64,000 nt of DNA from positions 1 through 64,000 of the forward strand of contig NZ_BCZQ01000030.1 of NCBI RefSeq assembly GCF_001598815.1. The letters are read 5' to 3'. Below the pieces are notes generated by a model. It worked only from the letters and a program-made list of their open reading frames with translations, did not search any database and was not told the DNA's origin. Shown one piece after another: positions 8,802 to 29,140 of the stretch (the stretch's first letter is position 1; the number at the start of each line of letters is the position of its first letter). Source of the stretch: Sphingopyxis terrae subsp. terrae NBRC 15098. GTDB lineage: Bacteria; Pseudomonadota; Alphaproteobacteria; Sphingomonadales; Sphingomonadaceae. Both the position numbers and the translations under genes were made by a program.

Positions 8802-10037
8802 GTGACTCGCATGGGAGAACCAGCGGAAAACGAGCAAGACGTTGGCGGCGATGAAGTCTCGACCGCCCGGTCTATGCGCGTGGCCGCTGCCCTCGCCCGC
8901 AAAGGCGGCGACGAGTTTGTCAAACCCGGTAGGCTCGTCGAGGTTCGATTCGTCAAGGGCCAGTCTCTCAGTCTCACCTCCTCACGCCTGCTGGCACTGA
9001 TGATCCTGACCGCGGGCGGCGATGCGTGGCAAGACATAACCCACCGGATGCGAAAGGCGGATATCCGCCGCGGCCACAAGGGCAACGAACGCATTGGCGA
9101 TATGCTTGAGGAGCTTCATCGCACGCTGTTCGCCGAGGACGACAAGTCCTGGCGCGGGAAGCGAACAACCAAGCGTTTCAACCTAATCCAGGCTTCCTGG
9201 GAGGAAGTCGAGGAGGTCGGAGACGGCGGTAAGGAGACGGGCTGGATCGAGTGGCAGTTCACGCCGGATGCTCGCCGCCTGATCCAGGAGTCCGAAACCT
9301 ATGCCGTGATGAACCGTCAGGCCGTCCTGGGTTTCCGGTCTGCTTATGCGCTCAAGCTCTACGAGGAGGGTGCGCTTCGTCTGCATCGGCGTCAGCCGGT
9401 GTGGAAGGTCGATATGGTCGGCCTGCGTGCGGCGCTTGGGATTGATCCGGATAAATACGGCGACTTCGCCCAGTTACGGCGAAAGGTCCTGACCGTTGCC
9501 AAGGCAGAAATCGATCAGCTCGCCCATTACACGGTTGAGTGGCAGGAGATCCGACGCGGCCGCGCGGTAACCGAGATCGAGTTCCGTTTTGCGCCGAAGG
9601 ACGCGCCTGCGCAGATCGCGACGGTCGATGAACTTGGTCGGCACTCAACCGGGCGGAAGGCGCGCCGGGAGGATGCGGTCGAGGAAGTCGTTGCCATTGA
9701 GAGCGCCCTCCCTCGCAGCGACGCAGTCGATAGTGCGGCGGTGGCTGACGTCCTCAAGCGCGTGACGGCGTCTCTTGCCACCCCGGAAAGTTCCTCTGGG
9801 GTGAACGCTGAGCCATGGGCGCGTTTCCCGCGGGGGAAGCTGCACTTTGGCGTGACCGAGGATGCGGCGCGTGGGATCGGGTTGCGCCACGGTGGTGGAT
9901 GGGACGTCGATCTGATCGCAGACGCATACCGTGAGCATATGGGGGATCGTCTCAATACGCTCTCAGGGTCTAAACTCGAGAAGTCCTGGAAGGGATTCTG
10001 CGAAGCCTTCCTTACGCGCCGGGGACGGCCGGGCTAG
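8802..10037 (+). CDS. repA: Rep_3-family plasmid replication initiator protein (about 411 aa)
   Basis: The protein has the two winged-helix layout of Rep_3 initiators (residues about 40-270), including a segment with FRSAYALKLYE and a later LRRKVLTVAKAEID helix. The C-terminal 130 residues carry an additional conserved-looking tail. Initiators of this class bind iterons and recruit host DnaA and helicase; the seven upstream repeats are the expected target. The start is GTG at 8802 or ATG at 8811, neither with a clear ribosome-binding site. The upstream inverted repeat implies autoregulation. The gene ends directly at the first parS-like palindrome, and parA follows in the same direction, so replication and partition are linked in one region. 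Confidence 0.9.
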   Translation: MTRMGEPAENEQDVGGDEVSTARSMRVAAALARKGGDEFVKPGRLVEVRFVKGQSLSLTSSRLLALMILTAGGDAWQDITHRMRKADIRRGHKGNERIGDMLEELHRTLFAEDDKSWRGKRTTKRFNLIQASWEEVEEVGDGGKETGWIEWQFTPDARRLIQESETYAVMNRQAVLGFRSAYALKLYEEGALRLHRRQPVWKVDMVGLRAALGIDPDKYGDFAQLRRKVLTVAKAEIDQLAHYTVEWQEIRRGRAVTEIEFRFAPKDAPAQIATVDELGRHSTGRKARREDAVEEVVAIESALPRSDAVDSAAVADVLKRVTASLATPESSSGVNAEPWARFPRGKLHFGVTEDAARGIGLRHGGGWDVDLIADAYREHMGDRLNTLSGSKLEKSWKGFCEAFLTRRGRPG

Positions 10038-11408: not shown

Positions 11409-11418
11409 AAATACCGAA

Positions 11419-11432
11419 TTGCACGCGTGCAA
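11419..11432. promoter_or_regulatory. parS-like palindrome, copy 2
   Basis: TTGCACGCGTGCAA, identical to the core of copy 1, lies 10 bp after the parA stop codon. It is followed 34 bp later by copy 3, so two sites form a cluster in the parA-parB gap. Confidence 0.75.
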
Positions 11433-11449
11433 GATCGGAAGAACGAAGA

Positions 11450-11469
11450 AAATTGCACGCGTGCAATTT
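11450..11469. promoter_or_regulatory. parS-like palindrome, copy 3 (20 bp perfect)
   Basis: The same 14-bp core (11453-11466) is extended to arms AAATTGC/GCAATTT. It ends 18 bp before the parB start codon and just before its ribosome-binding site, so bound ParB could both mark the centromere and affect parB expression. Confidence 0.75.
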
Positions 11470-11487
11470 CGGTGAAGGGAGGCTCGC

Positions 11488-12504
11488 ATGAGCAGGAAAA
11501 ACAGTGGCTTTGCGGCCGATCTGGCGGCAGGGATCGATCTGTCGGATGAACCTGCGCCGCAGCGCCGAACCGGGATCGCATCGAACGTCCTGACCGGCCG
11601 ATCGAACCGGCTGTCTGACCTCGCGTCGGGAGCCATCGTTACCCGGACCCATGAGCTGGTGGACCCGGCTCGCTGCCGCATGTGGGCCGGCCACAACCGC
11701 GATTACGCTTTGCTCACCGAAGAGCGCTGCGCCGATCTCATTGAGAGTATGAAGGCCCAAGGGCGCCAGGAGATGCCCGCAATCGTCCGGCGCGTGTCGG
11801 GCGACGCTGACTTTGATTTTGAGGTGATCTGCGGTGCGAGGCGGCATTGGACGATAAGCTGGCTGCGCTCGCACAATTATCCTGATTTCAAGTTCCTCGT
11901 CGACGTCAGGGAGATCGGCGATGAGGAGGCATTCCGGCTTGCCGACATTGAGAACAGAGCCCGCGATGATCTGACCGATCTCGAGCGGGCAAGGGACTAC
12001 CTCCGGGCGCTGGATCTCTATTATGACGGGCGACAGCGGACGATGGCCGAACGCCTGAATGTGAGCGAGAGCTGGCTCACGCGGTATCTCGATCTCGCGC
12101 GTCTGCCGGCCGAGCTGACGCGGGCCTTTGCCAATCCCCAAGAGCTGGGCGTCCGCAATGCCATAGCGCTCAAGGCGCTGTTGAAGCCGGATGACCGCAA
12201 GGCGAGGGCCTTCGCGGAAGCGGCGCGGATTGCGGAAGCGCGGGACGCTGGCGCAGAGGCTCAATCGATCCTGGAAGTCATCAAGACGCTAAGCCTCGCG
12301 GTCGATGCCCCCAAGAAGACAGGATCCCCCAAGAAGACAGGAAAAGCCGAGACGGTATCGAGTGCCGGCGGAAAGCCCGTGCTCAGGATCGAGGGCGCTG
12401 ATCGCAAGGGGATCCGCTTGACGCTGCTCAACAAGGGTGGGGCGACACGCCAAGATGCGGAGCAGGCGATCCGGGCGCTCCTGGACCAGCATTGGCCTCA
12501 GTGA
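11488..12504 (+). CDS. parB: ParB-family plasmid partition protein (338 aa)
   Basis: The N-terminal part (residues about 55-150) is a ParB nuclease-type domain (ICGARRHWTISWLRS corresponds to the ParB box). A helix-turn-helix follows (TMAERLNVSESWLTRYLDLARLP region, about 185-215). The C-terminus carries two tandem PKKTGSPKKTG-type basic repeats and a short dimerisation-like end. Length and order match RepB/ParB of alphaproteobacterial plasmids. The start ATG has GGGAGG 7 bases upstream. It is the likely binder of the three TTGCACGCGTGCAA palindromes. Four bases separate its stop from the stop of the convergent downstream gene. Confidence 0.93.
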   Translation: MSRKNSGFAADLAAGIDLSDEPAPQRRTGIASNVLTGRSNRLSDLASGAIVTRTHELVDPARCRMWAGHNRDYALLTEERCADLIESMKAQGRQEMPAIVRRVSGDADFDFEVICGARRHWTISWLRSHNYPDFKFLVDVREIGDEEAFRLADIENRARDDLTDLERARDYLRALDLYYDGRQRTMAERLNVSESWLTRYLDLARLPAELTRAFANPQELGVRNAIALKALLKPDDRKARAFAEAARIAEARDAGAEAQSILEVIKTLSLAVDAPKKTGSPKKTGKAETVSSAGGKPVLRIEGADRKGIRLTLLNKGGATRQDAEQAIRALLDQHWPQ

Positions 12505-12506
12505 TC

Positions 12507-13418
12507 CTATGCGGCCGCCAATTTGGCCTGGGCAGCAAGCTTCGCCGCGCCTTGCGGCGATATGTCGAGCAACCGGGCGATCGCGGGCACCCGCAGTCCA
12601 GGGTAGGCCAATTCTAGGCGAATGAGCGTTGGCAACTTGCTCCGGCGAGTAACGCCAAGGTCCGAGGACAGGGCGGCGACCGCGCGTTCGAGCTTGTCGA
12701 GTTCAGCGAGACCCGACCAGGCGGTACGACCGAGCGCAGTCTCGATCTCCCCGGCGAGTTCGGCGGCGCTCCCGGTCAGGAACTTCGGAAGCCACACCAA
12801 GGAGGGGATCTGCTGTATCGTCACGCCCGCCGCAGCCAAGGCCTTGGGCAGCATGCAGGCGAGCAGCCACACGATCCCGAAGCTTCTCGGATCGACGTTG
12901 AGGAGGCGTCCATCGATGGTCGTGACGCGGCGGCCCTCCGTCGGATTGATCTCCAGCTCTCTATGGATCGCCTGGAGGCGCTCTGCGACTGCTAGAAGGG
13001 TAGGGGAGGGGTACGGGGCGCCGAGCCTTGCCCGGGCCTCCCTGAAGGCCCGGCCGAAGCGCACAAGGTCATCGCGGCCCCACATCTCGGCTTGCGTGCG
13101 ATCGTCGAGCAACGTGCGCAGTGTATTGAGCGAAGCGCGGGCAAGGGAGTCGGGGCCATCCTCCCCCAGGAGCAGGAAGTGCATGATTGCGGCGACCGAC
13201 AGCGGATCGTTGAGGCCCTCGCTGTGGCGAGGCGGCGGGGTGCGTCCGCAAATCCAGTCAAGGATGGAGTCCGGGTCGACCGGAACGCCGGCGATACCGG
13301 CGACAGTCGCTGCGGCTTTCACGCGAGCGCGGGCAAGCCAGATATCTCGCGCCGGGCTTCCAAAGAGACGGCCATCAAGTCGACCGATCGACAAGAGGGG
13401 AGGGGCCGGGCGAGGCAT
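12507..13418 (-). CDS. Helix-turn-helix protein of unknown role (303 aa, possibly DUF1612-like)
   Basis: I do not recognise this family securely. The protein is alpha-helical throughout, without signal peptide or membrane segment. The C-terminus has a clear helix-turn-helix (VPAIARLLDISPQGAAKL), preceded by a basic patch (RRSKLPTL). Rhizobial plasmid proteins with DUF1612 and a C-terminal HTH have a similar layout. It converges on parB and is divergent from the tyrosine recombinase, sharing a 100-140-bp regulatory gap with two perfect inverted repeats, so it may repress itself and/or the recombinase. No ribosome-binding site is obvious at the ATG at 13418. Confidence 0.68.
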   Translation of the reverse strand: MPRPAPPLLSIGRLDGRLFGSPARDIWLARARVKAAATVAGIAGVPVDPDSILDWICGRTPPPRHSEGLNDPLSVAAIMHFLLLGEDGPDSLARASLNTLRTLLDDRTQAEMWGRDDLVRFGRAFREARARLGAPYPSPTLLAVAERLQAIHRELEINPTEGRRVTTIDGRLLNVDPRSFGIVWLLACMLPKALAAAGVTIQQIPSLVWLPKFLTGSAAELAGEIETALGRTAWSGLAELDKLERAVAALSSDLGVTRRSKLPTLIRLELAYPGLRVPAIARLLDISPQGAAKLAAQAKLAAA

Positions 13419-13440
13419 TGTAGGAGCCTATCTCCTATCT

Positions 13441-13463
13441 CAACCAAAGTCACCCTTTGGTTG
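13441..13463. promoter_or_regulatory. Inverted repeat in the divergent HTH-protein/recombinase gap (9-bp arms)
   Basis: CAACCAAAG and CTTTGGTTG flank a 5-bp spacer. It lies 22 bp upstream of the leftward HTH protein gene, where an operator or its promoter would be expected. Confidence 0.5.
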
Positions 13464-13492
13464 TTGTCTCTTAGACTGACGCAAGATGAACC

Positions 13493-13514
13493 TGTGATAA
13501 TTGCAGTTATCACA
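13493..13514. promoter_or_regulatory. Inverted repeat before the tyrosine recombinase (8-bp arms, 6-bp spacer)
   Basis: TGTGATAA and TTATCACA flank TTGCAG. Arms of this kind with a 6-8-bp central region are also the geometry of tyrosine-recombinase crossover sites, so besides an operator it could be the core site for the adjacent recombinase, for example for multimer resolution. Both readings are inference. Confidence 0.45.
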
Positions 13515-13559
13515 TAAGCGGATTTGACGCTTCTCTATACGTGCGCTACATCGCCATCG

Positions 13560-14813
13560 ATGGAGGCGAGTGGAACAGACAAGGTGGAAAGCCCAGAAAA
13601 CGGCGACTCTGCCGTTCCGACCGGGGCGCTCGTCGCCGCGCCGGCCGTGCCAATGCCTGAGATCGCCTGGACCGTAACGCAGATGCGCGCCGGCGAGCGA
13701 ATCGTCATCAACCCAGAGCTGATCGCGGCATATCAGGCTGCAAGTTCGCCGCATTCGGTCCGTGCGCTCAAATCCGACCTCGAGGCGTTCGATCTGTGGT
13801 GCCGCCGGACGAACCGGGTCGCGCTGCCGGCGACGCCCAAAATCGTCGCCGACTATCTCGACGCGCGGGCGGGGCAGGGGGCCAAGCCCGCTTCACTCGG
13901 CCGCTACAAGGCATCGATCGCCAAGATCCACCAGCTGCTCGACCTCAAGGATCCGACCCAGGCCGAGTTGATCAAGCTGCGTCTCCGCGCCATCCGCCGC
14001 GAGAAGGGGACTTCGCAGCGCCAGGCGCGGCCGCTGCGGTTCAAGGGGCCAGTCAAGGACGTCGAGAGGGACAAACCCCGTGGGATCAACGTCAGGGCGC
14101 TCCTGGAGGCTTGTGCGGACGATTTGCCGGGGCTCCGCGATCGCGCCCTCCTGTCGGTTGCCTACGATAGCGGCCTGCGGGCGTCCGAGCTGGTGGCCGT
14201 GTGCGTGGAGCATATCATTGAGGCACTCGACCCTGAGGCGCGGCTGCTTGCCATCCCGCGCAGCAAGGGCGACCAGGAAGGGGAGGGGGCAACCGCATTC
14301 CTGTCGCCGCGGTCGGTGCGCGCGATCGCAGCCTGGACCGATGCCGCAAGTATCAGGAGCGGACCGCTTTTCCGACGCGTGCAGGTGCGGCGCTACACGG
14401 CGCGCGCGGCGGTGCAGGGCAGGCCGATCGACAGCATCTCCGCGCGCGAGATCTGGGATTTACGCAAGACGCTCTCGAGGCCGGCGGTGCCGGCGCGGGT
14501 GGAGTATGATCTTGGGTCGGCAGCGCTGCACCCCGGGTCTATCGGACCGATCTTTCGGGCGATCGTCCAGCGAGCGTTCGACCGCGGCGCCCTGGACGAT
14601 CTTACCAGCGACGACCTCGCTCGGTTGCTCAAGGGGATCAGTGCTCACTCGACGCGAGTTGGGCTCAACCAGGACCTGTTCGCGAGCGGCGAAGATCTTG
14701 CCGGCATCATGGACGCTCTTCGCTGGAAGAGCCCGCGCATGCCGCTCGCCTACAATCGCAACCTAGCGGCAGAACAGGGTGCGGCGGGCCGCCTGATGGC
14801 GAAGATTAGCTAG
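13560..14813 (+). CDS. Tyrosine-type site-specific recombinase (about 417 aa)
   Basis: An N-terminal SAM-like DNA-binding domain (residues about 60-150) precedes the catalytic domain. The visible catalytic residues are Arg in YDSGLRASEL, a Lys-containing beta hairpin (IPRSKGDQEGE), His-x-x-Arg in SAHSTR and the nucleophile Tyr in MPLAYNR near the C-terminus. All are present, so the enzyme looks intact. The start is uncertain: ATG at 13560 is the first ATG, but TTG at 13524 is in frame. Being beside parAB, it may resolve plasmid multimers or drive integration. It closes the backbone block, and the accessory iron genes begin about 430 bp further on. Confidence 0.88.
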   Translation: MEASGTDKVESPENGDSAVPTGALVAAPAVPMPEIAWTVTQMRAGERIVINPELIAAYQAASSPHSVRALKSDLEAFDLWCRRTNRVALPATPKIVADYLDARAGQGAKPASLGRYKASIAKIHQLLDLKDPTQAELIKLRLRAIRREKGTSQRQARPLRFKGPVKDVERDKPRGINVRALLEACADDLPGLRDRALLSVAYDSGLRASELVAVCVEHIIEALDPEARLLAIPRSKGDQEGEGATAFLSPRSVRAIAAWTDAASIRSGPLFRRVQVRRYTARAAVQGRPIDSISAREIWDLRKTLSRPAVPARVEYDLGSAALHPGSIGPIFRAIVQRAFDRGALDDLTSDDLARLLKGISAHSTRVGLNQDLFASGEDLAGIMDALRWKSPRMPLAYNRNLAAEQGAAGRLMAKIS

Positions 14814-15161: not shown

Positions 15162-15178
15162 TTGCGATTGGTTCGCAA
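15162..15178. promoter_or_regulatory. Fur-like box upstream of the FecI-like sigma gene
   Basis: TTGCGA-TTGGT-TCGCAA is a perfect 6-5-6 inverted repeat, 69 bp before the sigma factor ATG. The same pattern precedes several other iron genes here. It resembles alphaproteobacterial Fur operators, so iron-repressed expression of the sigma/anti-sigma pair is inferred. Confidence 0.7.
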
Positions 15179-15247
15179 TAGAGAAAATGCTACCCGATCC
15201 GCTCCTAATTCACTGGCAGAAAGAGGTTGCCGTAGCGGGTGTCAAAA

Positions 15248-15748
15248 ATGGAGAGTCTTGATGTCTTCCTTGCGGCGAAGGCGGACCTGCTTCGTTATGC
15301 GACGAGGATTACGGGCGATCCTAACGAGGCCGAGGACGTGGTGCAGGATGCGTGGCTGCGGTTCCGCGCGGTCGCCACCACGAGCGTGCTTGAGGAGCCC
15401 AGCGGTTACCTGTTTCGGATCGTCCATAATCTTGCTTTGGACCGACACCGACACCAGACACGACAAAACCGGGTTTTCGTGGGCGGCGCCGATCGCGCGA
15501 CGACGCAAGTGCCGAGCAATGAGCCCTCGCAGCATTCGCGCGCCGAGGCTAGGGACGAGCTTGCCATGTTGCATAAGGCCGTGGCGCAGCTACCGAAACG
15601 CACCCGCCGGGCTTTCGAAATGCATCGCTTTGATGGAATGAAACTGGTGGAGATCGCGGAAGAGTTGGGAATATCGAAAAGCTTGGCGCAGGAACTTGTT
15701 ATGGATGGGGTAGAGTGTTGCAAGCGGGCGCTACGGCAGCGCCAATGA
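15248..15748 (+). CDS. fecI: FecI-like ECF sigma factor (about 166 aa)
   Basis: Region 2 is visible at the N-terminus (RITGDPNEAEDVVQDAWLRF) and region 4 at the C-terminus (KLVEIAEELGISKSLAQELV), with the short linker of group 4 sigma factors. Together with the FecR-like gene and the receptor with an STN domain that follow, it forms a cell-surface signalling cascade: the loaded receptor signals through FecR to release this sigma factor for transcription of the receptor operon. ATG at 15248 is chosen; GTG at 15239 is in frame and possible. The FecR-like gene starts 104 bp downstream. Confidence 0.93.
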   Translation: MESLDVFLAAKADLLRYATRITGDPNEAEDVVQDAWLRFRAVATTSVLEEPSGYLFRIVHNLALDRHRHQTRQNRVFVGGADRATTQVPSNEPSQHSRAEARDELAMLHKAVAQLPKRTRRAFEMHRFDGMKLVEIAEELGISKSLAQELVMDGVECCKRALRQRQ

Positions 15749-15852
15749 GCCGCCTCTGCAGAATTTCCCGGAATTATGTGCGTGCCGTTCGTTGAATGGG
15801 TAACAGCCTTAGAGGGCCATGCCACCGGCGCGTTCATCAATATGGAAACAGA

Positions 15853-16824
15853 ATGAGTGGGAGATCGGAGGAGCGGACGCCGGGCGAAATAAGCCGCCGG
15901 GCTACTGCTTGGATGTTGCAGCTTGACGATGAGCCGGATGACGAGGCGTTGCGCGCGGAATTCGAGAATTGGCTCACGTCTCATCCAGCGCATCTCGCGG
16001 CCTGGGAGGAAACCGAGCACGTTTCTGACTTGATTTCCGCCGCCGGGCCGTTGTCTCAGAACAGGCCACCACCGGGATCGGCGCACCCAATTTCGTTCTC
16101 CAAGTTCATGTCCGCCAGGGCGTTTGTCTCGCTTGCGGTGGCGGCGTGCCTTGCTTGGATCGTTGTACCCAGTATTGCACTTCAGCTTCGAGCGGATGAG
16201 GTCTCGCGAGCTGGGGAACCGCGCATTGTTAGCCTCGATGATGGCAGCACCGTCCATCTCGCGCCGGCGACGGCGATAGCCTTCACCACTGGCGCGAAGG
16301 GGAGGTATCTGGAACTTCTGCAAGGCGAAGCATGGTTCGACGTGGCACATGATGAGGCGCGGCCATTCCGGGTCATGGCGGGTGATAGCATCGTGACCGT
16401 TCTCGGCACCGCCTTTTCCGTTCGGAAGACGGACACCGGAACCGACGTCGCCGTTCAGCGCGGTCGCGTCGCGGTGGCAACGAATGATGCTGCCCCGCCT
16501 GCCCGTGTAGAGTTGGTTGCTGGCCAGTCACTCTCATTGAGCAAGGGGGCGTCAACGCTCGCTGAGATACGCCCCGAAAACGTCGCGAGCTGGCGTGAGG
16601 GGGTTGCTATCGTCAGCGATCAATCAATCGGCGAAGTGATCGAACGCCTCCGCCCCTGGTATAAGGGCTTTATTGTCGCGAGGGGACCGGGCCTGATGCG
16701 TCGCCGTGTCAGTGGGATTTATGATCTGCGCGACCCCGATCTGGCACTCGAGGCGATTGCGCGAGCGCATAGGGTGAAGGTTTCCCGGGTCTCGCCGTGG
16801 CTGCGCATCGTGACCGTTGGCTAG
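15853..16824 (+). CDS. fecR: FecR-family anti-sigma regulator (about 323 aa)
   Basis: The cytoplasmic N-terminus has the DUF4880-like helices (about residues 10-55, ending LAAWEETEHVSDLI). One transmembrane segment follows (AFVSLAVAACLAWIVV), then the periplasmic FecR domain (GEPRIVSLDDGSTVHLAP and onward) and a C-terminal STN-like region that contacts the receptor. It holds the sigma factor inactive until the receptor binds its ligand. The open frame begins at 15796, but the ATG at 15853 gives the normal FecR start. It sits between the sigma gene and the receptor gene, the standard order. Confidence 0.93.
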   Translation: MSGRSEERTPGEISRRATAWMLQLDDEPDDEALRAEFENWLTSHPAHLAAWEETEHVSDLISAAGPLSQNRPPPGSAHPISFSKFMSARAFVSLAVAACLAWIVVPSIALQLRADEVSRAGEPRIVSLDDGSTVHLAPATAIAFTTGAKGRYLELLQGEAWFDVAHDEARPFRVMAGDSIVTVLGTAFSVRKTDTGTDVAVQRGRVAVATNDAAPPARVELVAGQSLSLSKGASTLAEIRPENVASWREGVAIVSDQSIGEVIERLRPWYKGFIVARGPGLMRRRVSGIYDLRDPDLALEAIARAHRVKVSRVSPWLRIVTVG

Positions 16825-16892
16825 AACCGCGAGCTTTTTTCCTGTCATCGACATTTTTTTCCGGAATTCCTGAACGCTCGAACGTCTAAGAT

Positions 16893-16909
16893 ATGCGACT
16901 GCTTCGCAT
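16893..16909. promoter_or_regulatory. Fur-like box upstream of the hemophilin-receptor gene
   Basis: ATGCGA-CTGCT-TCGCAT is a perfect inverted repeat with the same 6-5-6 geometry as the box at 15162, 13 bp before the receptor start. A repressor here would overlap the promoter or ribosome-binding region. The receptor operon could thus be under both Fur-like and FecI control. Confidence 0.58.
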
Positions 16910-16921
16910 TAGCGATGCAGA

Positions 16922-19900
16922 TTGAGCATTAAACTTAGGTCGAGAGGTACGGGCGAAGTGCGTTCGGGGGGTATTTTCAAAAGTCATGGTGGCCGCCGGC
17001 TTCTGGCGAGTGCGCTGCTCGCTTCGGCATCGTTCAGCGGGCTGCTCGTTCCGGGAGCTGTGCACGCGCAGGTAGTGGAGGCCGAGGCGCGGCGATTCAA
17101 CATCTCGGCGCAGTCGATGGCCAGCGCGCTGGCGGATTTTGGTCGGCAGTCGGGGCTTCAGGTGAGCATGGACGCCGATCAGGTCCGCGGCCTTTCTACG
17201 CAGGGCGTCCACGGCACAATGACGCCTTCGCAGGCGCTCGATCGCTTGCTTGCCTCCAGCGGCCTTGAAGCGCGTATCGAAGGAAGGATCGTGTCCTTGC
17301 GCCAAGTGCAGCCTGCGCGAGGTGATCAGCTCCGGCCGGATACGGTCGTCCTGGATTCCCTTCGGGTCGAAGGCGATGAAACCGCCCGGGCGAACGAGAC
17401 CGGCATAGAGCGCGACGCTCGCCGGAAAAATGAAGTCTACGATCAGGATGTTTCCACCACCTTTGCAAGCCGGGAGGAAGTCGAGCGCTACAGGGGCACC
17501 AACACCGCCGATGTGCTCAAGGGCATGGTCAATGTGTTCAGCGGCGATGCGCGCAACGGCGGGGCGCTCGATCCCAGCATTCGCGGCATCCAGGGGCCGG
17601 GCCGTGTTCCGGTCATCATCGACGGCACCGAACAGGCGCTAACCGTCTGGAAGGGCTATAATGGCGCTGGCAATCGCAGCTATATCGATCCGAGCCTGAT
17701 TTCAGGCATACAGGTCCTCAAGGGACCGGTTTCAACGCGCGGGGTCAATGGCTCGACCGGCGGCGCCGTGATCGTCAACACGCTTGACGCCGCTGACATC
17801 CTCCAGCCCGGTCAGACCTTCGGCATCGAAGCGAAGTTGGAAGGCGGCAACAATTCGACCAAGCCGCGCTGGCCGACGCTGCTGACGGGGCAGGACCATC
17901 GCGCTGTGCCCGGCTTTCCAACGAGCTGGTTGGCTAGCTTCCCCTATGGCGATCCTTCGCTGCGGGTGAATTTACGCACCAAGGACGACAACGAGGCCTT
18001 TTCTTTCGGTGATCGCGCGATCCGGATCGCGGCAGCGGGGCGCGTCGGCGATTTCGAGCTGTTCGGTGCTTATGCCTTTCGTGAGCGCGGCAACTATTTT
18101 GCCGGCAAGCATGGGGCCGATTATTACCAGCAGGCCCAACTGGAGCTCAACGCGGCCAACTACGTGCGCGTGCTCGGCCTCCATTACAAGCCGGGCAACG
18201 AGGTGCCGAACACGTCGAGCGCGATGGACTCCATCATGCTCAAGGGCACCTGGCACATCGCCGACGACCAGGCGCTGCAAATCGGCTTTCGCGATACCCG
18301 CTCGAGATTCGGTGAGATCATGCCCTCTCGCATCATGACGATGGGCAAGGGCTATACCTTCGGCAATATCCAGTGGCCCGAGAGCAAGGTCCACGCCCAA
18401 GCATATAATGCCGAGTATAAATGGCAGCCGGACAGCCGCTTCATAGACTTCAAGGCCACGGCCTGGCTGACCAACACGGTGAGCGACACCTATAGCGCCG
18501 GCGGCTTTCCCAATGTTGCCTCGCCTTCAGCGCCTATCATCGTCAACAGCGCAATCGCGAATTCCCAGAATCATCGCTTCGGCTTCAGTGCGAGCAACCA
18601 GTTCAACCTGTCTTCAACGCTGAGCTTCCTGCTCGAAGGCAACTGGCAGCATGAGAAGCTCAGTTCGGACGACGATTATGCGGTCACACGAACGTTCCCC
18701 GGCGTGCGTGCCTATCCCCGCGCTGGCCGCCGTGAGGAGTATCGCATCAATCTAAGCGGGGAATGGAAACCGTTCAGCTTCCTGAAGTTCAATGCTGGCC
18801 TGGCCTATACCGGCTATTGGGCAAAGGATGATTTCCTGCCGAAGTTGATCGCAGCCAGCGGCGGGTCAGTGCCTGTTTATACCGCCAGAAGCAGTATGAC
18901 CGACTACCAGACGCTGGAAACCTCGGTCGAGGCCTATGCGGCGTCTCGCCGGGAATATTGGGCCGACGACAAGAATAACTGGGGCGCGACGCCAGCCGAA
19001 CAGGAAGCTGTCATAGCCCGGGAAGTGGCCGAGTTTGCCGCCAATCCTTACACCTTCACCTGGACCCACGCTGGCCCTGACTGGGTACCGGATGCGAACG
19101 GCAAATACCGGCGTGCCGACAACATTTGCATAAACGGGTTTCTCGATAAGGTACCTAACTATATTCAAGGGACCTGCAATGCAGGCGGCAGAAACATCGT
19201 CGTCGATGTCACCGAAGCAAAACGTAAATCCGGACATGGGTGGGTTCCCAGCGCATCGGCGACGCTCTCTTTTAGCGACAGCAGCCGGGCATATGTCCGT
19301 TACGCCGAAGCCCTGCGCTGGCCGAGCCTGTTTGAAAGCACGATTGGCTTCTCCGCTTCGATCGATCCGCTGCGCGATTTGAAGCCGGAGCGCATGAAGT
19401 CATGGGAAGCCGCTTTCATCCAGGATTTGCGGCCGCTTTTCGGGTTGCGCGGCGACGGCCAGCATGCCGATGTCAAGCTGACCTGGTATCACAACACCAC
19501 GCACAACGTGATCGAGCGCAACAGCAGTTTGTTCTTCAGCAATCTCGATCAGCAGACCATCGCTGGGTTTGAGCTTCAGGCGCGCTTCGACAATGGCCGC
19601 TTCTTCACCGACCTCAGCGCCGGTCATATGACCAAGAATCAGGTGTGCGATGAAAGCACGGCCGTCGGAATAGATGCCGCCCGGGGTTATCGTGTGCCCG
19701 ATTGCGTCAAATATGGCTTCGTCAGCAGCTTCCTGCTGACTCAGGCCACGCCGGAGACGAGCGTCAACTGGAACGTCGGCGGCCGCTTTTTCGACCGGCG
19801 TCTCGAGGTGGGCGGGCGACTGATCTGGTACAGCGCCTATGACAATCCAGACCCGATCGGGGAATGGACCACCGGCGAGACCTGCGTCGGCGGCTGCTCT

Positions 19901-20092
19901 CTCAACATCCCCTACACCTGGGGCGAGATCATTACGTTCGATGCCTATGCGCGCTTCCGGATCAACGAGCGGTTCAGCGCCGAGCTGGCCGGCACGAACC
20001 TCAATGACCGCTATTATATGGACCCGCTTTCACGCTCGATGATGCCCGCTCCGGGACGGACGGTGCGCTTCAGCCTGACAGGAAGGTTCTGA
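16922..20092 (+). CDS. TonB-dependent signalling receptor with STN domain, probable hemophilin/haem receptor (1056 aa)
   Basis: A signal peptide (RRLLASALLASASFSGLL, cleaved near AHAQ) is followed by an STN signalling domain (about residues 55-125, FNISAQSMASALADFGRQSG), a plug domain (about 170-290, with the RGIQGPGRVPVIIDG strand) and a 22-strand barrel ending in Phe (VRFSLTGRF). At 1056 aa it is larger than most siderophore receptors, with long extracellular insertions (about residues 650-760), as in receptors that take haem from a protein. It follows fecI/fecR and precedes the hemophilin-like gene, so I infer that it imports haem from that carrier and signals to FecR. The start is TTG at 16922, the only start compatible with the signal peptide; weak initiation is possible. 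Confidence 0.9.
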   Translation: MSIKLRSRGTGEVRSGGIFKSHGGRRLLASALLASASFSGLLVPGAVHAQVVEAEARRFNISAQSMASALADFGRQSGLQVSMDADQVRGLSTQGVHGTMTPSQALDRLLASSGLEARIEGRIVSLRQVQPARGDQLRPDTVVLDSLRVEGDETARANETGIERDARRKNEVYDQDVSTTFASREEVERYRGTNTADVLKGMVNVFSGDARNGGALDPSIRGIQGPGRVPVIIDGTEQALTVWKGYNGAGNRSYIDPSLISGIQVLKGPVSTRGVNGSTGGAVIVNTLDAADILQPGQTFGIEAKLEGGNNSTKPRWPTLLTGQDHRAVPGFPTSWLASFPYGDPSLRVNLRTKDDNEAFSFGDRAIRIAAAGRVGDFELFGAYAFRERGNYFAGKHGADYYQQAQLELNAANYVRVLGLHYKPGNEVPNTSSAMDSIMLKGTWHIADDQALQIGFRDTRSRFGEIMPSRIMTMGKGYTFGNIQWPESKVHAQAYNAEYKWQPDSRFIDFKATAWLTNTVSDTYSAGGFPNVASPSAPIIVNSAIANSQNHRFGFSASNQFNLSSTLSFLLEGNWQHEKLSSDDDYAVTRTFPGVRAYPRAGRREEYRINLSGEWKPFSFLKFNAGLAYTGYWAKDDFLPKLIAASGGSVPVYTARSSMTDYQTLETSVEAYAASRREYWADDKNNWGATPAEQEAVIAREVAEFAANPYTFTWTHAGPDWVPDANGKYRRADNICINGFLDKVPNYIQGTCNAGGRNIVVDVTEAKRKSGHGWVPSASATLSFSDSSRAYVRYAEALRWPSLFESTIGFSASIDPLRDLKPERMKSWEAAFIQDLRPLFGLRGDGQHADVKLTWYHNTTHNVIERNSSLFFSNLDQQTIAGFELQARFDNGRFFTDLSAGHMTKNQVCDESTAVGIDAARGYRVPDCVKYGFVSSFLLTQATPETSVNWNVGGRFFDRRLEVGGRLIWYSAYDNPDPIGEWTTGETCVGGCSLNIPYTWGEIITFDAYARFRINERFSAELAGTNLNDRYYMDPLSRSMMPAPGRTVRFSLTGRF

Positions 20093-20204
20093 CAGAGGTT
20101 CAGGGCCGCCACCGCATCCATCATTTTGAGCAAAGCGGGATGACGGCGACGACCCTGGATGAAGGCACCTGAACGTCAGGTGTTTCGATCGCAGGAGAAG
20201 TAGT

Positions 20205-20984
20205 ATGAAATTCGCACATCTCAAAGCCGTCGTTGGGGCCATGGCGCTCTCCATTGCCATGGCAGGCACCGCACAGGCCCAGATAACGTCGGGTACGAGC
20301 GACAACACCAGGGTCCGGATCGGCACGAGCACTGTGGTCGGGGGGCCGCACTCCGCCGGCAAGGTCGGCATTTGGGTGCCCAATCTGCCGACTATGCCGG
20401 TTCGATGGTTTGTCGACTTCGAAGGCTTGCAGGCTGTTTCCCCGCCGGTGGGTGCCGGTCCCGGCGTGACAACCGTCAATAATCCTTCGGGGACAATCTC
20501 CGATCACTCGAAATATGGCCGTTTCGACTTCTCAAAGGTCGATGGCCACAATGTCTATTATGGCGAGTGGAGCCAAACCGGTTCGGCCTCCGCCGGCGAC
20601 CACACCGTCTATTTTGGCGGCACCGGCGCCACGGCCGCCGGCAGCATCCCGACCAGCGGTACGGCCAGCTATAATGTCTACGGACTGAGCAACTACGCCG
20701 GTAACGGCCAACTATCCGGGACGTTCAATGCCAATTTCGGCACAAAGACGCTGACCGGCTCGATCTCGTCGGCGACTTACGCCCTGAATATCGGCACCGC
20801 TACCATTGCCGCCGGCGGTTTCACAGGGTCCGGGGCCACCGCCTCCAATCCGGCCACGAGCACGACGCTGGCGACGGGCGGCAGTGTGAGCGGCAAGTTC
20901 TTCGGCTCTGCCGCGCAGGCGCTCGCCGGGATCGCGACGTTCAGCAATCGCCAGTACAACGCCGCTTTCGGCGGTAAGCAGTAA
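20205..20984 (+). CDS. hphA: Hemophilin-like secreted haem-binding protein, Slam substrate (259 aa)
   Basis: A Sec signal peptide ends at TAQA|QITSG (cleavage after residue 25) and there is no lipobox Cys, so the product should be soluble rather than a surface lipoprotein. The C-terminal half is a small glycine-rich beta-barrel with the TbpB-like closing motif GKFFGSAAQALAG, typical of Slam substrates and of Acinetobacter hemophilin HphA. The N-terminal half (about residues 26-150) would be the ligand-binding handle; it contains several His and Tyr residues (for example DGHNVYYGEW). It lies between a TonB receptor and a Slam gene, with HemO just after. The ribosome-binding site is AGGAGAAG. 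Haem as ligand is inferred from the neighbours. Confidence 0.8.
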   Translation: MKFAHLKAVVGAMALSIAMAGTAQAQITSGTSDNTRVRIGTSTVVGGPHSAGKVGIWVPNLPTMPVRWFVDFEGLQAVSPPVGAGPGVTTVNNPSGTISDHSKYGRFDFSKVDGHNVYYGEWSQTGSASAGDHTVYFGGTGATAAGSIPTSGTASYNVYGLSNYAGNGQLSGTFNANFGTKTLTGSISSATYALNIGTATIAAGGFTGSGATASNPATSTTLATGGSVSGKFFGSAAQALAGIATFSNRQYNAAFGGKQ

Positions 20985-20999
20985 TCGCGCATTCGAACA

Positions 21000-21030
21000 G
21001 GATCAGGGCCGGATTTTCCGGCCCTGATCC
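21000..21030 (+). terminator. Strong hairpin between the hemophilin-like and Slam genes
   Basis: GGATCAGGGCCGG and CCGGCCCTGATCC form a perfect 13-bp stem with an ATTTT loop, followed by TTCTT. It lies 15 bp after the hphA stop and 8 bp before the Slam open frame. It could terminate most transcripts or protect the hphA 3' end, giving far more hemophilin than exporter. Confidence 0.75.
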
Positions 21031-21037
21031 TTCTTAG

Positions 21038-22564
21038 GTGAATGCCCCGCGGAAGCCGAAACCACGCATGCCGACTCTGAACAACTCCAGCTTGGCCCGG
21101 ACTTTATGTGCCTGTGTTGTGTGCCTTCCCTTGCCGGCTCTCGCGCAGAACGCTGGCGAGCAAGATACAAGACTGCGCCTCGACCAGGAAATACAACGGC
21201 AGCAGCGGAAGGCGGAATCGCAGATTCTTGACGGCGCCGATGCGCTGGATGGGCCGCCAACTTCTCTGGAGATCGACGGCAATAGCTATTCCGTCGGCGA
21301 TAATGTCGATGAGATGGGGCAGGCCCTCTATATCTCCGTCAGGCGGCAGCAATGGGCCGACGTGCGCCGGTTCCTTATTGCCTATGAGCGTTATCCCGAT
21401 CGTGATCCGAAGCTCCTCCTATTTGCGAGGGGCGCGCTTGCGCGCCAGACCGGCAAGCTGAGCGAGGCCGAGCGCTATTACCGCGAACTGGTGGAGCTCG
21501 ATCCCGGCCTACTGTCCGGGCAACTCGAACTGGCGCGCGTGCTGTTCGAGAACCGGAAGGATCGTGAGGCGCGGGGTGCATTCGAGCACGTGCGCGTCCA
21601 GCTCGTCGCCGAGGGCGACAAGTCGGTAGGGGTCGTCCGCAGCGTGGACGCCTTCCTTGCTGCCCTGAAGCAACGGCGAGGCTGGCGGGGCACCATCGCC
21701 ATAGGCCCCGGCTACAGCACCAATCTCAACCAGTCTTCGGCCAGCTATACTTGCCTTCTCGCGAGCGAGGACGGCACCTGCCTCATCGACCGGAAGGTGC
21801 CCGATCCGATCAAGGCCGCCGGCATCAATTTCGAAGGTACCCTGGGACGTAGCATTCCGATGTCCGGACATCATGGCGTACGCGCCAGCGCGCTTCTGTT
21901 CGGCGACATCTATCCGGACGAAAACGCCTATTCGCAGGCGACCCTCATCACGCGGGCGGGCTATCAGTATCAGTCCGCTCGCAACAGCCTTTCGCTGTCG
22001 CCCTCGTTCGAGGCCAGCACCTTTGGTCCCTCGGTGCTCTACACCGCCTGGGGCGCCAATCTGGATTGGTCACATACAGCCGCGCACAACATCCTATTCC
22101 GGGCGGAAGCAAACTATCGTGATTTTCACTATCGCCAACGCGCCTTCGCCTCACAGGACGGGCCCCAAACAGACGTCAGCCTGACGGCCTTTTACCTCGC
22201 TTCCCCAAGCTGGACCCTGTTTGGCGGACCGGATTTTATCACCAAGGATGCCCAGGCGGCCGAGGACGCCTATCGGCAATGGGGTGCGCGCGTCGGCATA
22301 AGCAAATCGTTCGGCACTCGCGCGAGCCTGCTCGTGATCGGTTCATACCGCCGCCGCGACCATCGCGCTTATAGCGAGCTATTCGAAGCCAGGCGCAGAG
22401 ACGACCAATACAACATCACGGCGATCGCACGCTTCCCGGTGCTGAAGTTAGCGGGCCTTACACCCGAGTTCGTGATTCAGGACAATCGGGTCGAGAGCAA
22501 CATCGACTGGCTGTATTCCTACAAGCGTACGACCGCCAGCGTAAGGCTGAGCCATGTCTTCTAG
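21038..22564 (+). CDS. Slam (surface lipoprotein assembly modulator, DUF560) outer-membrane exporter (508 aa)
   Basis: After a signal peptide (VVCLPLPALAQ), the N-terminal half has TPR-like helices (LLFARGALARQTGKLSEAERYYRE region, about residues 110-180). From about residue 215 a 14-strand DUF560 beta-barrel follows, opening with GTIAIGPGYSTNLNQ and ending in Phe (SVRLSHVF). Slam proteins move TbpB-like or hemophilin proteins across the outer membrane; the adjacent hemophilin-like gene is the obvious client. GTG at 21038 is the open-frame start; ATG at 21068 gives a more normal signal peptide. The upstream terminator-like hairpin suggests low expression. Alternative: a DUF560 protein for another client, less likely given synteny. 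Confidence 0.88.
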   Translation: MNAPRKPKPRMPTLNNSSLARTLCACVVCLPLPALAQNAGEQDTRLRLDQEIQRQQRKAESQILDGADALDGPPTSLEIDGNSYSVGDNVDEMGQALYISVRRQQWADVRRFLIAYERYPDRDPKLLLFARGALARQTGKLSEAERYYRELVELDPGLLSGQLELARVLFENRKDREARGAFEHVRVQLVAEGDKSVGVVRSVDAFLAALKQRRGWRGTIAIGPGYSTNLNQSSASYTCLLASEDGTCLIDRKVPDPIKAAGINFEGTLGRSIPMSGHHGVRASALLFGDIYPDENAYSQATLITRAGYQYQSARNSLSLSPSFEASTFGPSVLYTAWGANLDWSHTAAHNILFRAEANYRDFHYRQRAFASQDGPQTDVSLTAFYLASPSWTLFGGPDFITKDAQAAEDAYRQWGARVGISKSFGTRASLLVIGSYRRRDHRAYSELFEARRRDDQYNITAIARFPVLKLAGLTPEFVIQDNRVESNIDWLYSYKRTTASVRLSHVF

Positions 22565-22756
22565 ACCGTTCAGTCAGCATTTGCGACCGCCATGGAAGCC
22601 GTTTCGCAGACCCATGCGACGCGAGCCCATTCACCGACTTCGTCCCCCAGGCCGAGCTTCACTCCCTCCCTGGGCGACGATCCAAAGGGGGTGGCGGCCC
22701 AAAGCCCGCCACCCCCGAACACTTCCATTCGACAAACAAGCGGAAAGGGATTGTCC

Positions 22757-23362
22757 ATGAACGTAACCACCTCCGAACGGTCCATTGAGGCGCAAAGCCG
22801 CGCGAAGCGCCTCAAGGCGTTGACCAGCACTGTCCATGAGGGCGTCGACCGTTCGATCATGTCGGCATCGTCCTTCGCCACGATCGACCGCTACAAGCGG
22901 TTCCTGGCGATTCAGTATCTCTTCCACCGCGACGTGGCAGCCCTCTATGCGGAATCGCGCTTGCAAGCCGCCTTCCCGGATCTCGTCCACCGGTGCCGGC
23001 TACCGCTCGTGATCGCCGATATGGAGGATCTCGGCGTCGCAACGCCGGATGCAGGATCGCCGATTTTCATTGCCGGGGGCCCGGTGGACATGGGCACCGC
23101 GCTGGGCTGGCTCTATGTCGCCGAAGGATCCAACATGGGCGCGGCCGTGTTGCGCAAGGAAGCGCACAAGCTTGGTCTGACCGATGATGTCGGTGCCCGC
23201 CATCTGGCGCCTGCGCTCGAAGGCCCGGCTCCCCACTGGCGCGCATTCACCGCCGCGCTCGATGCGGTCGAACTAAGCGATGATGAAGAAACGCGCGCCA
23301 GAGAAGGCGCGCTGGAAGCCTTCGCGCAGGTCCAGGCCCATGTCGATGCGCGGCTTGACTGA
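22757..23362 (+). CDS. hemO: HemO-type haem oxygenase (201 aa)
   Basis: The protein resembles Neisseria HemO along its length. The proximal haem ligand is His27 in STVHEGVDRSIMS. The distal-helix segment GWLYVAEGSNMGAA with its conserved glycines and the motif GARHLAP are present. It cleaves haem in the cytoplasm to release iron, biliverdin and CO. Size (about 200 aa) is normal. The start ATG at 22757 follows GGAAAGGGA; the open frame extends upstream to 22592 but without family similarity. It is overlapped by the DUF454 gene (22 bp), so the two are probably translated together. Confidence 0.93.
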   Translation: MNVTTSERSIEAQSRAKRLKALTSTVHEGVDRSIMSASSFATIDRYKRFLAIQYLFHRDVAALYAESRLQAAFPDLVHRCRLPLVIADMEDLGVATPDAGSPIFIAGGPVDMGTALGWLYVAEGSNMGAAVLRKEAHKLGLTDDVGARHLAPALEGPAPHWRAFTAALDAVELSDDEETRAREGALEAFAQVQAHVDARLD

Positions 23363-23768
23363 AACTTCGAAGGCCGGCCTGCTCCGGCGGGGCCGAACGG
23401 CGCGCGCCGGTTGGCTCGTCCTCGGCCTGATGCTGGTTGCGATCGGCATCGTCGGCATTTTCGTGCCGTTGTTGCCGACCACATCCCTTATGGTGCTGGC
23501 GATGCCCTGCTTTGCGCGCTCATCCCCCAGACTGGAAGCATGGCTGCTCGATCATCCTCGCTTCGGACCGGGCGTGCGTGCGTGGCGCGCGGAGGGCGCC
23601 GTGCCCCGCCATGCCAAGATCGCGGCATGCATCGGCATGGCGGCGGGGTTTGGGCTGTTCTGGCTCCACGTCCGGCCCGGCGCGCTGCTGACCTGCGCGG
23701 GAGCGGGGTTCATGCTGTTCTGGGCGGTATGGATCGTACGCCGGCCCGAGCCGGGGGTATCACAATGA
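23340..23768 (+). CDS. DUF454 (YbaN-like) small inner-membrane protein (142 aa)
   Basis: DUF454 proteins are small membrane proteins of unknown function. Three hydrophobic segments are visible (AGWLVLGLMLVAIGIVGIF, IAACIGMAAGFGLFWL, LLTCAGAGFMLFWAVW), with the family motif PLLPTTSLMVLAMPCFARSSPR between the first two. Starts at 23340 or 23346 overlap the end of hemO; the open frame itself begins at 23280. It ends in an ATGA overlap with the tonB gene. DUF454 genes often lie beside haem-oxygenase or haem-uptake genes, so a link to haem handling is plausible, but nothing in the sequence shows a reaction. Confidence 0.85.
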   Translation: MSMRGLTETSKAGLLRRGRTARAGWLVLGLMLVAIGIVGIFVPLLPTTSLMVLAMPCFARSSPRLEAWLLDHPRFGPGVRAWRAEGAVPRHAKIAACIGMAAGFGLFWLHVRPGALLTCAGAGFMLFWAVWIVRRPEPGVSQ

Positions 23769-24637
23769 AACCGGGAAACTACCGCGGGGCGCAGCTCGCC
23801 GCTGCGAATGATGGAGCCACCCTCTTCGAGGACCATGTCGTCTTCCGAACCTGTTGTCCTGACAGTCCGCTGCAGCGGGGGAACACGTCGCCCGTGCCTG
23901 TGGCGAGCCCGCAACTTGCCGAGTTCTCGCGCAGCTACAGCCGTTATTGTGATCAGCCGATGGACTGGCGCACACGCCTTTTCGGCATTGCCGGCACTGC
24001 CGCGGTTATAGGGCTGGTCCTTGCTGCCGCCCTGTTCACGTGGACGACAGTTTACCAGCCTGTGCGGGCCACCTCGCCGCCGCTGACGGTGGTAGAGCTA
24101 CAACCGCTGGCGGCACCCCCAGAACCGGTCCGCAACGTGGCGCCGGGGCGGGAACAAGTGGAAAAGCAGGAAGCCGAGCTTGAGCCGGTCACCGAGCCGA
24201 TCCCAATCCCGCTCGTCCAGATCGCGGCACCGACCATGTCGGCGCGGGACTTGCGTGCGCCGGTAAAGATCGTTGATCCCGGCCCTGCCGTGCCGGAAAC
24301 GACCGCGCCCAAAAGCGTCGCCGCTCCGACCGCCGACCGATTGTCCAATGACGTACGGCCAGATTGGGAAGGATTGATCCTCGCCCGACTGGAGCGCTAC
24401 CGGCGTTATCCAGCCAGAGCACGCGCCGCACGCCAGCAAGGCACCGTCTATGTTCGTTTCAAGATGAACCGGTCGGGGATGGTGCTGTCGTCTGCCATCG
24501 TTAAGAAGTCGGGCTCCTACGACCTCGACCAAGCCGCGCTCCAAACCCTCGACCGCGCTCAGCCGCTTCCCGCAATTCCCGCGGACAGGCCTGATGTCGT
24601 CGAGTTGACCATCCCTGTCGAGTTCTTCCTGCGTTGA
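23765..24637 (+). CDS. tonB: TonB-family energy transducer (about 290 aa)
   Basis: One N-terminal transmembrane segment (FGIAGTAAVIGLVLAAALF, about residues 72-90) is followed by a Pro/Glu-rich periplasmic spacer (EPVTEPIPIPLVQ) and the C-terminal TonB domain with the YPARARAARQQGTVYVRF strand-helix motif. It delivers proton-motive energy to the outer-membrane receptor of the island. No exbB/exbD are in the window, so they must be supplied elsewhere. The ATG at 23765 overlaps the DUF454 stop (ATGA); this gives a 64-residue cytoplasmic extension of unknown purpose. A start at ATG 23960 (MDWRTRL) gives a normal-length TonB. Confidence 0.87.
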   Translation: MKPGNYRGAQLAAANDGATLFEDHVVFRTCCPDSPLQRGNTSPVPVASPQLAEFSRSYSRYCDQPMDWRTRLFGIAGTAAVIGLVLAAALFTWTTVYQPVRATSPPLTVVELQPLAAPPEPVRNVAPGREQVEKQEAELEPVTEPIPIPLVQIAAPTMSARDLRAPVKIVDPGPAVPETTAPKSVAAPTADRLSNDVRPDWEGLILARLERYRRYPARARAARQQGTVYVRFKMNRSGMVLSSAIVKKSGSYDLDQAALQTLDRAQPLPAIPADRPDVVELTIPVEFFLR

Positions 24638-28685: not shown

Positions 28686-28702
28686 TTGCGAGTAATTCGC
28701 AA
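28686..28702. promoter_or_regulatory. Fur-like box upstream of the Cys-pair/PPOX unit
   Basis: TTGCGA-GTAAT-TCGCAA is a perfect 6-5-6 inverted repeat, 37 bp before the ATG at 28739. It shares both half-sites exactly with the box before fecI. It implies that the two-gene unit downstream is iron-repressed. Confidence 0.7.
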
Positions 28703-28738
28703 TAAGCGATGAGAGGGGCAGCGTAGGAAGGACAAAGC

Positions 28739-29140
28739 ATGGCCCGCAATTTCCCGGCACACGCGTTCGAGACGAGGGGCGTTCCAGCGATTCTGATCGA
28801 CGCCGCGCGGTGCTGGCGGGAAGCGCGCGACAACGGGCGATCGGTCCAGCCTTGCCTGAGCCGGACACTCGACCGGCACGAATGCGCGATTCTTGCGCCG
28901 GTGCTCGACAGCCTCTGTCTATTTTATGAAGCGGCGCTCGGTCGGCCGATGGCGGTCGGTGAGGCGCTGACGTTGTCCGACGACGAGCATCTTCTGCTCG
29001 GCTTGGTGAACGGCTCCATACCCCGCCAATGCCTGAACTGTCCGAGAAGACGAGCGGCGACGCTCGACTGCGCGCTTTGCTCGGCACGGATCATGGTGGC
29101 GCTCACGCTCGGCCAGCCTGCGTCAGGGACGCTGCAATGA
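28739..29140 (+). CDS. Small Cys-pair protein of unknown function, probably iron-regulated (133 aa)
   Basis: I do not recognise the family. The C-terminal third has a CLNCP...CALC arrangement (two CxxC pairs about 12 residues apart), typical of zinc or Fe-S binding. The N-terminal part is helical, with a Cys in ARCWREAR and another in CLSRTL. There is no signal peptide, so it should be cytoplasmic. A GGAAGGA site precedes the ATG, and the Fur-like box is 37 bp upstream. It overlaps the PPOX-like gene by ATGA, so the pair is co-translated. A redox partner or metal sensor for the flavin protein is a guess. Confidence 0.75.
   Translation: MARNFPAHAFETRGVPAILIDAARCWREARDNGRSVQPCLSRTLDRHECAILAPVLDSLCLFYEAALGRPMAVGEALTLSDDEHLLLGLVNGSIPRQCLNCPRRRAATLDCALCSARIMVALTLGQPASGTLQ

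Follow-up and report, generated by a model that had tools for sequence, protein, structure and literature searches.

The window analysed here, 64,000 nucleotides of contig NZ_BCZQ01000030.1 (hereafter C30) of Sphingopyxis terrae subsp. terrae NBRC 15098, contains between positions 15239 and 24637 a run of eight genes that lie on one strand and have uninterrupted reading frames. Whole proteins were compared with Pfam and also with NCBIfam; the Pfam scores exceeded the curated cut-offs for all eight, and were judged to be far beyond chance. From 5' to 3', and all on the + strand, the genes encode a FecI-type extracytoplasmic function (ECF) sigma factor (15239..15748; Sigma70_r2 1e-13, with an NCBIfam match considered below), a FecR anti-sigma factor/transmembrane sensor (15796..16824; FecR 3e-20, DUF4880), an HphR-like TonB-dependent haem/haemophore receptor carrying an STN signalling domain (16922..20092; Plug 1.5e-15, STN 4e-10, barrel 4e-24, NCBIfam likewise below), an HphA-like soluble haemophore, or hemophilin, of 259 amino acids (aa) (20205..20984; HphA_N 1e-30, HphA_C 8e-30), a 508-aa Slam, that is, an outer-membrane exporter of the type 11 secretion system (T11SS) (21038..22564; SlipAM, also called DUF560, 1.4e-43, and TPR_Slam 2e-22), a haem oxygenase of the HemO/pa-HO type (22757..23362; Heme_oxygenase 6e-17), a DUF454 (YbaN-type) protein whose start is approximate (23340..23768; DUF454 1.5e-32) and a TonB (23765..24637; TonB_C 2e-16). 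The initial annotation of this DNA had proposed a complete, co-directional island of eight haem-acquisition genes, and Pfam identifies every one of them. The two proteins on which that proposal hinged are what they were said to be: the DUF560 profile search identifies the 508-aa protein as a Slam, and the 259-aa protein is hemophilin-like, with both HphA domains matched at about 1e-30 and six solved relatives.

Two of these starts differ from those of the open reading frame list. The haem oxygenase most likely begins at 22757 and not at the listed 22592, because the resulting 201-aa form aligns with the solved HemO and pa-HO from its own residues 6–8. For FecR, the ATG at 15853 is probably the start rather than 15796, since a predicted ECF promoter, described below, covers 15768–15796.

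The hemO cluster (haem cluster 2) of Acinetobacter baumannii has the same eight components: it is described as comprising an ECF sigma factor, an anti-sigma factor, hphR, hphA, hsmA, a TonB-related gene, a haem oxygenase and a hypothetical protein (PMC10483418). In the A. baumannii record NZ_CP043459, YbaN is the annotation of the eighth gene, a DUF454 match, and the receptor carries an STN domain. The first five genes come in the same order in both organisms, whereas the last three run hemO-DUF454-tonB in the window and tonB-hemO-DUF454 in A. baumannii; gene order was not taken as defining for membership of the hemO type. The two clusters also differ in location, that of the window being plasmid-borne (see below) and that of A. 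baumannii chromosomal (PMC10483418), although four A. baumannii records filed as plasmids also carry an HphA relative. The TTGCGA-type boxes and the ECF pattern of the window are listed as a further difference. The initial annotation had regarded FecIR signalling as something added to the Acinetobacter system. This idea has to be given up, as the A. baumannii hemO cluster already has an ECF sigma factor, an anti-sigma factor and an STN receptor, and an addition within sphingomonads is ruled out by the presence there of all eight parts (PMC10483418, NZ_CP043459). The paper on A. baumannii HphA (PMC8560813) does not use the terms "FecI" and "anti-sigma" in its main text.

Five other sphingomonad loci were compared with the window. 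All eight genes in the window order are found on the plasmid pSA1 of the soil strain Novosphingobium resinovorum SA1 (L005), in Sphingobium vermicomposti (L009) and in genome G386 (L043). Novosphingobium RL4 (L006) keeps the same order with no match to DUF454, and the divergent G336 locus (L044) has kept the sigma, receptor, hemophilin and Slam genes and gave no fecR match. The pSA1 cluster, whose HphA and Slam are 65% and 68% identical to those of the window, answers the call made at the outset for this gene order on sphingomonad plasmids. It has the same TGCGATTGGTTCGCA box and two perfect ECF-pattern sites; pSA1 itself is a 1.76-Mb megaplasmid that has no neighbouring genes in common with the window within the compared flanks. 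Outside the sphingomonads, pPsKG3_1 of Pseudoalteromonas sp. KG3 (L008) also carries the same eight parts on a plasmid, close to replication genes, with gene order and strands rearranged relative to the window and an HphA of 35% identity. The pPsKG3_1 hemophilin cluster lies near ParA and a replication initiator, and TonB/ExbD/ExbB genes come after it together with a second sigma/FecR pair (L008 13262–16708).

The 259-aa protein scores 106.8 bits against HphA_N (cut-off 22) and 104.1 bits against HphA_C (cut-off 31). Solved hemophilins are its best sequence matches in the Protein Data Bank (PDB), where six entries reach 1e-10 or better: four are named hemophilin, one haemophore and one transferrin-binding-protein-like. 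The first is 8gmm (2e-28), and 7re4 (2e-21) and 6om5 (7e-18) are among the others. Three of the six alignments extend across residues 31/34–258 and the other three across 95/98–258. The predicted haem ligands are H49 and H101. In a 14-row alignment of hemophilins, both columns are His in the six sphingomonad rows and in 11 rows overall, the exceptions being G1146, G1024 and G1104. In the numbering of that alignment, the A. baumannii counterparts of H49 and H101 are His 42 and His 105, while the published axial histidines are H43 and H106 (PMC8560813); this one-residue offset is attributed to numbering. H49 stands one column away from the first His of 7re4 when the two sequences are aligned pairwise in the PDB search. 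The protein contains no cysteine, so that there is nothing to lipidate. Its N terminus, judged by eye, is hydrophobic, resembles an export signal and ends in AQA, and the NCBIfam model that it matches is Slam-dependent surface lipoprotein (122 bits, cut-off 80). A haem site and a barrel had been proposed for this protein: the former is conserved at the level of sequence, while the predicted structure was uninformative. The AlphaFold model, computed from a two-row alignment in which the S. vermicomposti protein was the added relative, had a mean pLDDT of 31.6, and the fold, presumably a hemophilin barrel and clamp with a haem pocket, is therefore assigned by homology to the solved structures. 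Binding of haem by this protein would follow the same homology.

Could the ligand be something other than haem? T11SS cargo is diverse (PMC12282271), and another metal complex might be bound, as in the case of the cargo CrpC, a cobalt receptor protein. The HphA_N match, the two His ligands, a receptor whose nearest families are TonB-hemin receptors and an oxygenase of the HemO type all speak for haem instead, and I regard a non-haem ligand as barely credible. A different question is what the bound haem is for. The barrel protein might chiefly deny haem to competitors, uptake being secondary, as with the hemophilin of Haemophilus haemolyticus; hemophilin from non-pathogenic Haemophilus lowers colonisation by non-typeable H. 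influenzae (PMC10964412). In the window, however, receptor, TonB and haem oxygenase genes belong to the same run, in an order found again in several sphingomonads. This arrangement points to iron use and makes a mainly defensive role quite improbable.

The Slam protein consists of an N-terminal TPR region (80 bits) and a SlipAM (DUF560) barrel (150 bits). No other protein of the host genome matches PF04575 (151.5 bits for this one). Of 199 genomes sampled from the family, 61 (S. terrae among them) have PF04575 matches, the best score elsewhere being 95.7 bits; the window Slam is therefore unlike the usual DUF560 proteins of the family. In all 14 longer loci, the hphA and slam genes were adjacent; the pair was not seen in three of the short ones, L018, L019 and L023. 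Because hphA adjoins slam, the neighbouring hemophilin is the likely substrate of this exporter. Two genomes of one genus (G1109 and G924; loci L015, L016, L021 and L022) have two adjacent hemophilin genes ahead of one Slam gene. The initial annotation had considered Slam systems outside Gamma- and Betaproteobacteria little described, which is true in part: Slam subcluster 1C is largely made up of sequences from environmental Sphingomonadaceae (PMC8406197), and Sphingomonas surface proteins as well as haemophilin-like cargo specific to Rhodobacteraceae/Roseobacteraceae have been reported (PMC12282271). Among titles and abstract openings, a set that does not take in Shin 2024 and Grossman 2024 (J Bacteriol), no description of the cluster in sphingomonads was found. 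The haem oxygenase matches only two PDB sequences at E ≤ 0.001, HemO (2e-38) and pa-HO (2e-36), and is the sole PF01126 match in the host genome. If these assignments are right, the plasmid gives the cell its only Slam-family exporter and its only haem oxygenase.

Gene content and order, domains, conserved ligands, predicted promoter and operator sites, plasmid location and synteny are the observations made here. In the light of them, I consider it highly probable that the eight genes form a plasmid-borne cluster for haemophore-dependent acquisition of haem iron, of the same type as hemO (HphA-HphR-HsmA) in A. baumannii. It represents a sphingomonad branch of an already known type of cluster. 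Several results weigh against this assignment. Identity to the A. baumannii proteins is 33–39% for HphA, Slam, HphR, HemO and DUF454 (39% for the receptor), and 24–25% for the sigma factor, FecR and TonB, in the last case across 71 residues only. The nearest NCBIfam families of the receptor are haem/haemoglobin receptors (TonB-hemin), with a score under the cut-offs; the sigma factor is likewise under the NCBIfam cut-off for the FecI-type family, and no NCBIfam model matched the long form of the haem oxygenase (from 22592) at 0.01. The Slam barrel has no sequence relative among solved structures, its PDB matches being to the TPR or chance-like, and the low pLDDT of the hemophilin model belongs in the same list.

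The regulatory sequences of the cluster fall into two classes. A Fur-like palindrome, TTGCGATTGGTTCGCAA, lies upstream of the sigma gene (15162..15178, its first base being the position at which the initial annotation let the island begin), and a second one is found before the receptor gene (16894..16908). With one mismatch at most allowed, the window contains six copies of the palindrome TGCGAYTNNTTCGCA, against 0.28 expected, and the six sites are just upstream of, or at, listed starts: those of fecI, the receptor gene, the second and third TonB receptors of the window, an FTR1 permease and an unassigned open reading frame (ORF) preceding a PNPOx-domain gene. In all six sphingomonad loci, a Fur-like site (at most one mismatch) precedes the sigma frame or lies at its 5' end; five of them also have a site at the receptor gene (at most two mismatches), L009 being the exception. 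When the whole genome was scanned with TTGCGAYTNNTTCGCA at no more than one mismatch, eight sites were obtained, four of which are on this 65-kb contig, and the reversed control of TTGCGAYTNNTTCGCA gave zero sites in the whole genome. One of the four off-contig sites precedes a TonB receptor and one is at a class-V aminotransferase gene, which is read as a cysteine desulfurase; the other two, beside a LysR gene and inside a leucine-rich-repeat gene, are without evident iron link. The palindrome is taken for a predicted Fur box; a 19-bp palindrome is mentioned in a Caulobacter paper (PMC3751524).

The second class comprises two predicted ECF promoters on the + strand, CCGGAATT-N14-CGTTGAA (15768..15796) before fecR and CCGGAATT-N14-CGTCTAA (16861..16889) before the receptor gene, the latter being immediately followed on its 3' side by the second Fur-like palindrome. 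They are the two perfect matches in the window to the pattern CCGGAATY-N14-CGTYNAA, for which 0.12 sites are expected; 1 of 100 shuffles reached as many. The pattern resembles promoters of FecI-type sigma factors. It is present at both places in L005 (perfect) and in L006 and L043 (one or two mismatches). The STN domain of the receptor and the neighbouring FecI and FecR genes make up the anatomy of FecIR-type signalling; sigma-dependent transcription of the receptor gene is predicted from the promoter site. This prediction has points against it. Even with two mismatches allowed, L009 and L044 did not yield the pattern, and two unrelated sites with two mismatches occur, inside the window fecR and in L005. 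The 14-base gap was derived post hoc from loci read side by side, a first version of the pattern with a 15-base gap having been rejected as giving chance-level matches. Both motifs, Fur-like and ECF, were derived from the same loci on which they were tested, which makes the chance figures optimistic.

The sigma/FecR pair might regulate genes elsewhere, or the cluster might simply be Fur-repressed. The Fur-like boxes ahead of the sigma gene and of the receptor gene would suit such an arrangement, as would the G336 locus, which retains sigma, receptor, hemophilin and Slam genes with no fecR match. Against this stand the STN domain of the receptor and the predicted ECF promoters before fecR and the receptor gene, found in four of the six sphingomonad loci at up to two mismatches. 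I consider the absence of local signalling unlikely, and retain control of the cluster by its own sigma factor.

In experiments with A. baumannii, HphA release was Slam-dependent and haem was bound by two His; growth on low-concentration haemoglobin needed HphR, HphA and HsmA (PMC8560813). The receptor of the window has its best PDB sequence match in HasR, across residues 53–313, which makes HasR its nearest solved sequence. The Has system (HasA-HasR with a sigma/anti-sigma pair) follows the logic of the window cluster, with a haemophore, an STN receptor and an ECF sigma factor. HasA is an unrelated haemophore secreted by a type I system, whereas the exporter of the window cluster is a Slam. 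From the A. baumannii experiments and the Has and Fec precedents, hemophilin export, haem binding, signalling, co-transcription and iron release can be put together as follows. Under low iron, Fur repression would be lifted at the palindrome before the sigma gene, and the ECF sigma factor and FecR would be made. Hemophilin would cross the inner membrane via Sec, be exported by Slam and be released as a soluble protein. Holding haem by its two histidines, it would deliver it to the TonB-dependent receptor, the uptake being powered by the cluster's own TonB. The occupied receptor would signal through its STN domain to FecR and from there to the ECF sigma factor, which would direct transcription of fecR and of the receptor-hemophilin-Slam-hemO-DUF454-tonB run. 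Finally, the haem oxygenase would open the haem and free its iron. No inner-membrane haem transporter is present among the eight cluster genes, to which the search was confined, and a host transporter is therefore assumed. The cluster also exposes a signalling arm, namely a sigma/FecR pair and an STN receptor, that has been kept in both Acinetobacter and sphingomonads and that the predicted Fur and ECF sites render directly testable.

Judged from its genes, the replicon of the window is a plasmid. Upstream of the cluster and on the same strand, Pfam identifies a replication initiator (Rep3_N/Rep3_C, 8802..10037) and partition genes for ParA (10182–11408) and a SopB-type ParB (11488–12504). They are followed by a tyrosine-recombinase/integrase gene (13524..14813, +) that is common to the window and to p1 of Sphingomonas morindae (81% aa identity). 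The backbone matches 40 plasmid records, mostly of Sphingobium or Sphingomonas. Positions 1–13471 are 94% identical in DNA to p1 and positions 1–14792 are 92% identical, and homology stops just short of the integrase stop codon. The p1 plasmid (163 kb, 162990 bases) is typed as conjugative, MOBF, MPF_F, and carries other cargo beyond the integrase gene; a tblastn search of p1 30000–162990 of 162990, in three stretches, with the cluster proteins found no match at 1e-6. The first base of the window maps to p1 base 62955, and a second host contig, C31 (63,345 bases), matches p1 in pieces from p1 base 62956, starting at C31 base 4, so that C30 and C31 abut on the p1 map. C31 has a relaxase stretch 88% identical to p1 and an F-type transfer region 72–83% identical in pieces. 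TrwC/MobF relaxase genes number four in the host genome, on C26, C29, C31 and C47, and only that of C31 matches p1. C30 and C31 are joined on the strength of the p1 map and not of reads; on that footing, the cluster probably belongs to a p1-type plasmid that is 128 kb or larger and carries transfer genes itself. The suggestion of a mobile-looking alphaproteobacterial plasmid, made from the window alone, is thus strengthened by the Rep3/ParA/ParB genes, the p1 backbone and the C31 relaxase and transfer genes. An exact terminal overlap of C30, as a sign of circularity, was not found; neither were flanking repeats that would mark a transposon or an insertion target, the repeat families seen being short and degenerate. 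The spread of relaxase genes over four contigs suggests that the host has several conjugative elements.

The cluster is sparsely distributed. With the S. terrae genome counted each time, one genome has an HphA_C match among 80 from the genus, three among 397 from the family and one among 385 from the class. For the phylum, the figure is 11 among 398 (10 over the cut-off), the ten besides S. terrae being outside the class. A hemophilin relative is encoded by 11 of 72,556 public plasmid records, some of which are chromosome-sized, and a scan of genome contigs with a single protein gave one locus. Two carriers come from soil and rhizosphere. In trees of HphA (14 rows), Slam (14 rows) and the receptor (13 rows), from which second hemophilin copies and loci L015, L016 and L018–L023 were omitted, the six sphingomonads are on one side of a branch, with supports of 98/98, 100/100 and 100/100, respectively. 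The core of the cluster has therefore stayed together. The window and pSA1 are sisters in all three trees. Within the clade, RL4 and S. vermicomposti pair in the receptor tree (99/99), whereas the Slam tree groups S. vermicomposti with G386, the window and pSA1 instead (97/96); this disagreement speaks against a simple history. No ortholog-like match to any of 24 other window genes was obtained in the five other sphingomonad loci, each compared with some kb of flank; the only matches were three weak ones between TonB receptors (25–31%). Further out on the RL4 megaplasmid there is a MacB-like match, with 74% DNA identity over 7% of the query.

Does this pattern reflect an old sphingomonad inheritance that was lost from most lineages, the plasmid location being incidental? 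The sphingomonad clade is deep and well supported, and the G336 copy is on a 3.49-Mb contig, as such a history would have it. Yet the cluster is rare at every rank from genus to class, its nearest relative sits on a Novosphingobium megaplasmid and flanking genes are not in common within the few kb compared, so that I find ancient inheritance rather unlikely. That the cluster is sparsely distributed, has carriers in several genera and does not share its near flanks speaks instead for its transfer as a unit within sphingomonads. A broader proposal, for which the chances seem about even, is that a haem-piracy cassette common to sphingomonads moves between replicons as one unit of eight genes and is carried here by a self-transmissible-looking iron plasmid, so that haem-iron use would be both transferable and Fur-tuned. 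The cluster itself extends to sphingomonads, and to a type of plasmid that has transfer genes, a haemophore system known best from animal-associated bacteria.

Elsewhere, the window encodes a further pair of TonB-dependent receptors and a cytochrome c/FTR1 iron permease (31015–33267, 42755–44902 and 51048–53039), each with a Fur-like palindrome at its listed start or no more than about 70 bases from it; the plasmid therefore looks iron-dedicated. A Fur-like palindrome also lies ahead of a 133-aa ORF and a PNPOx-domain protein (28687–30150). Positions 35083–40679 encode a resistance-nodulation-division (RND) efflux set (OEP, AcrB-type, HlyD), and 47202–48434 a protein of the Porphyromonas-type peptidyl-arginine deiminase family (PAD_porph, 2e-96), which I presume to be an agmatine deiminase relative. 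A MacB-type tripartite set occupies 58435–62967, short stretches of which match plasmid records annotated as pyoverdine export/recycling.

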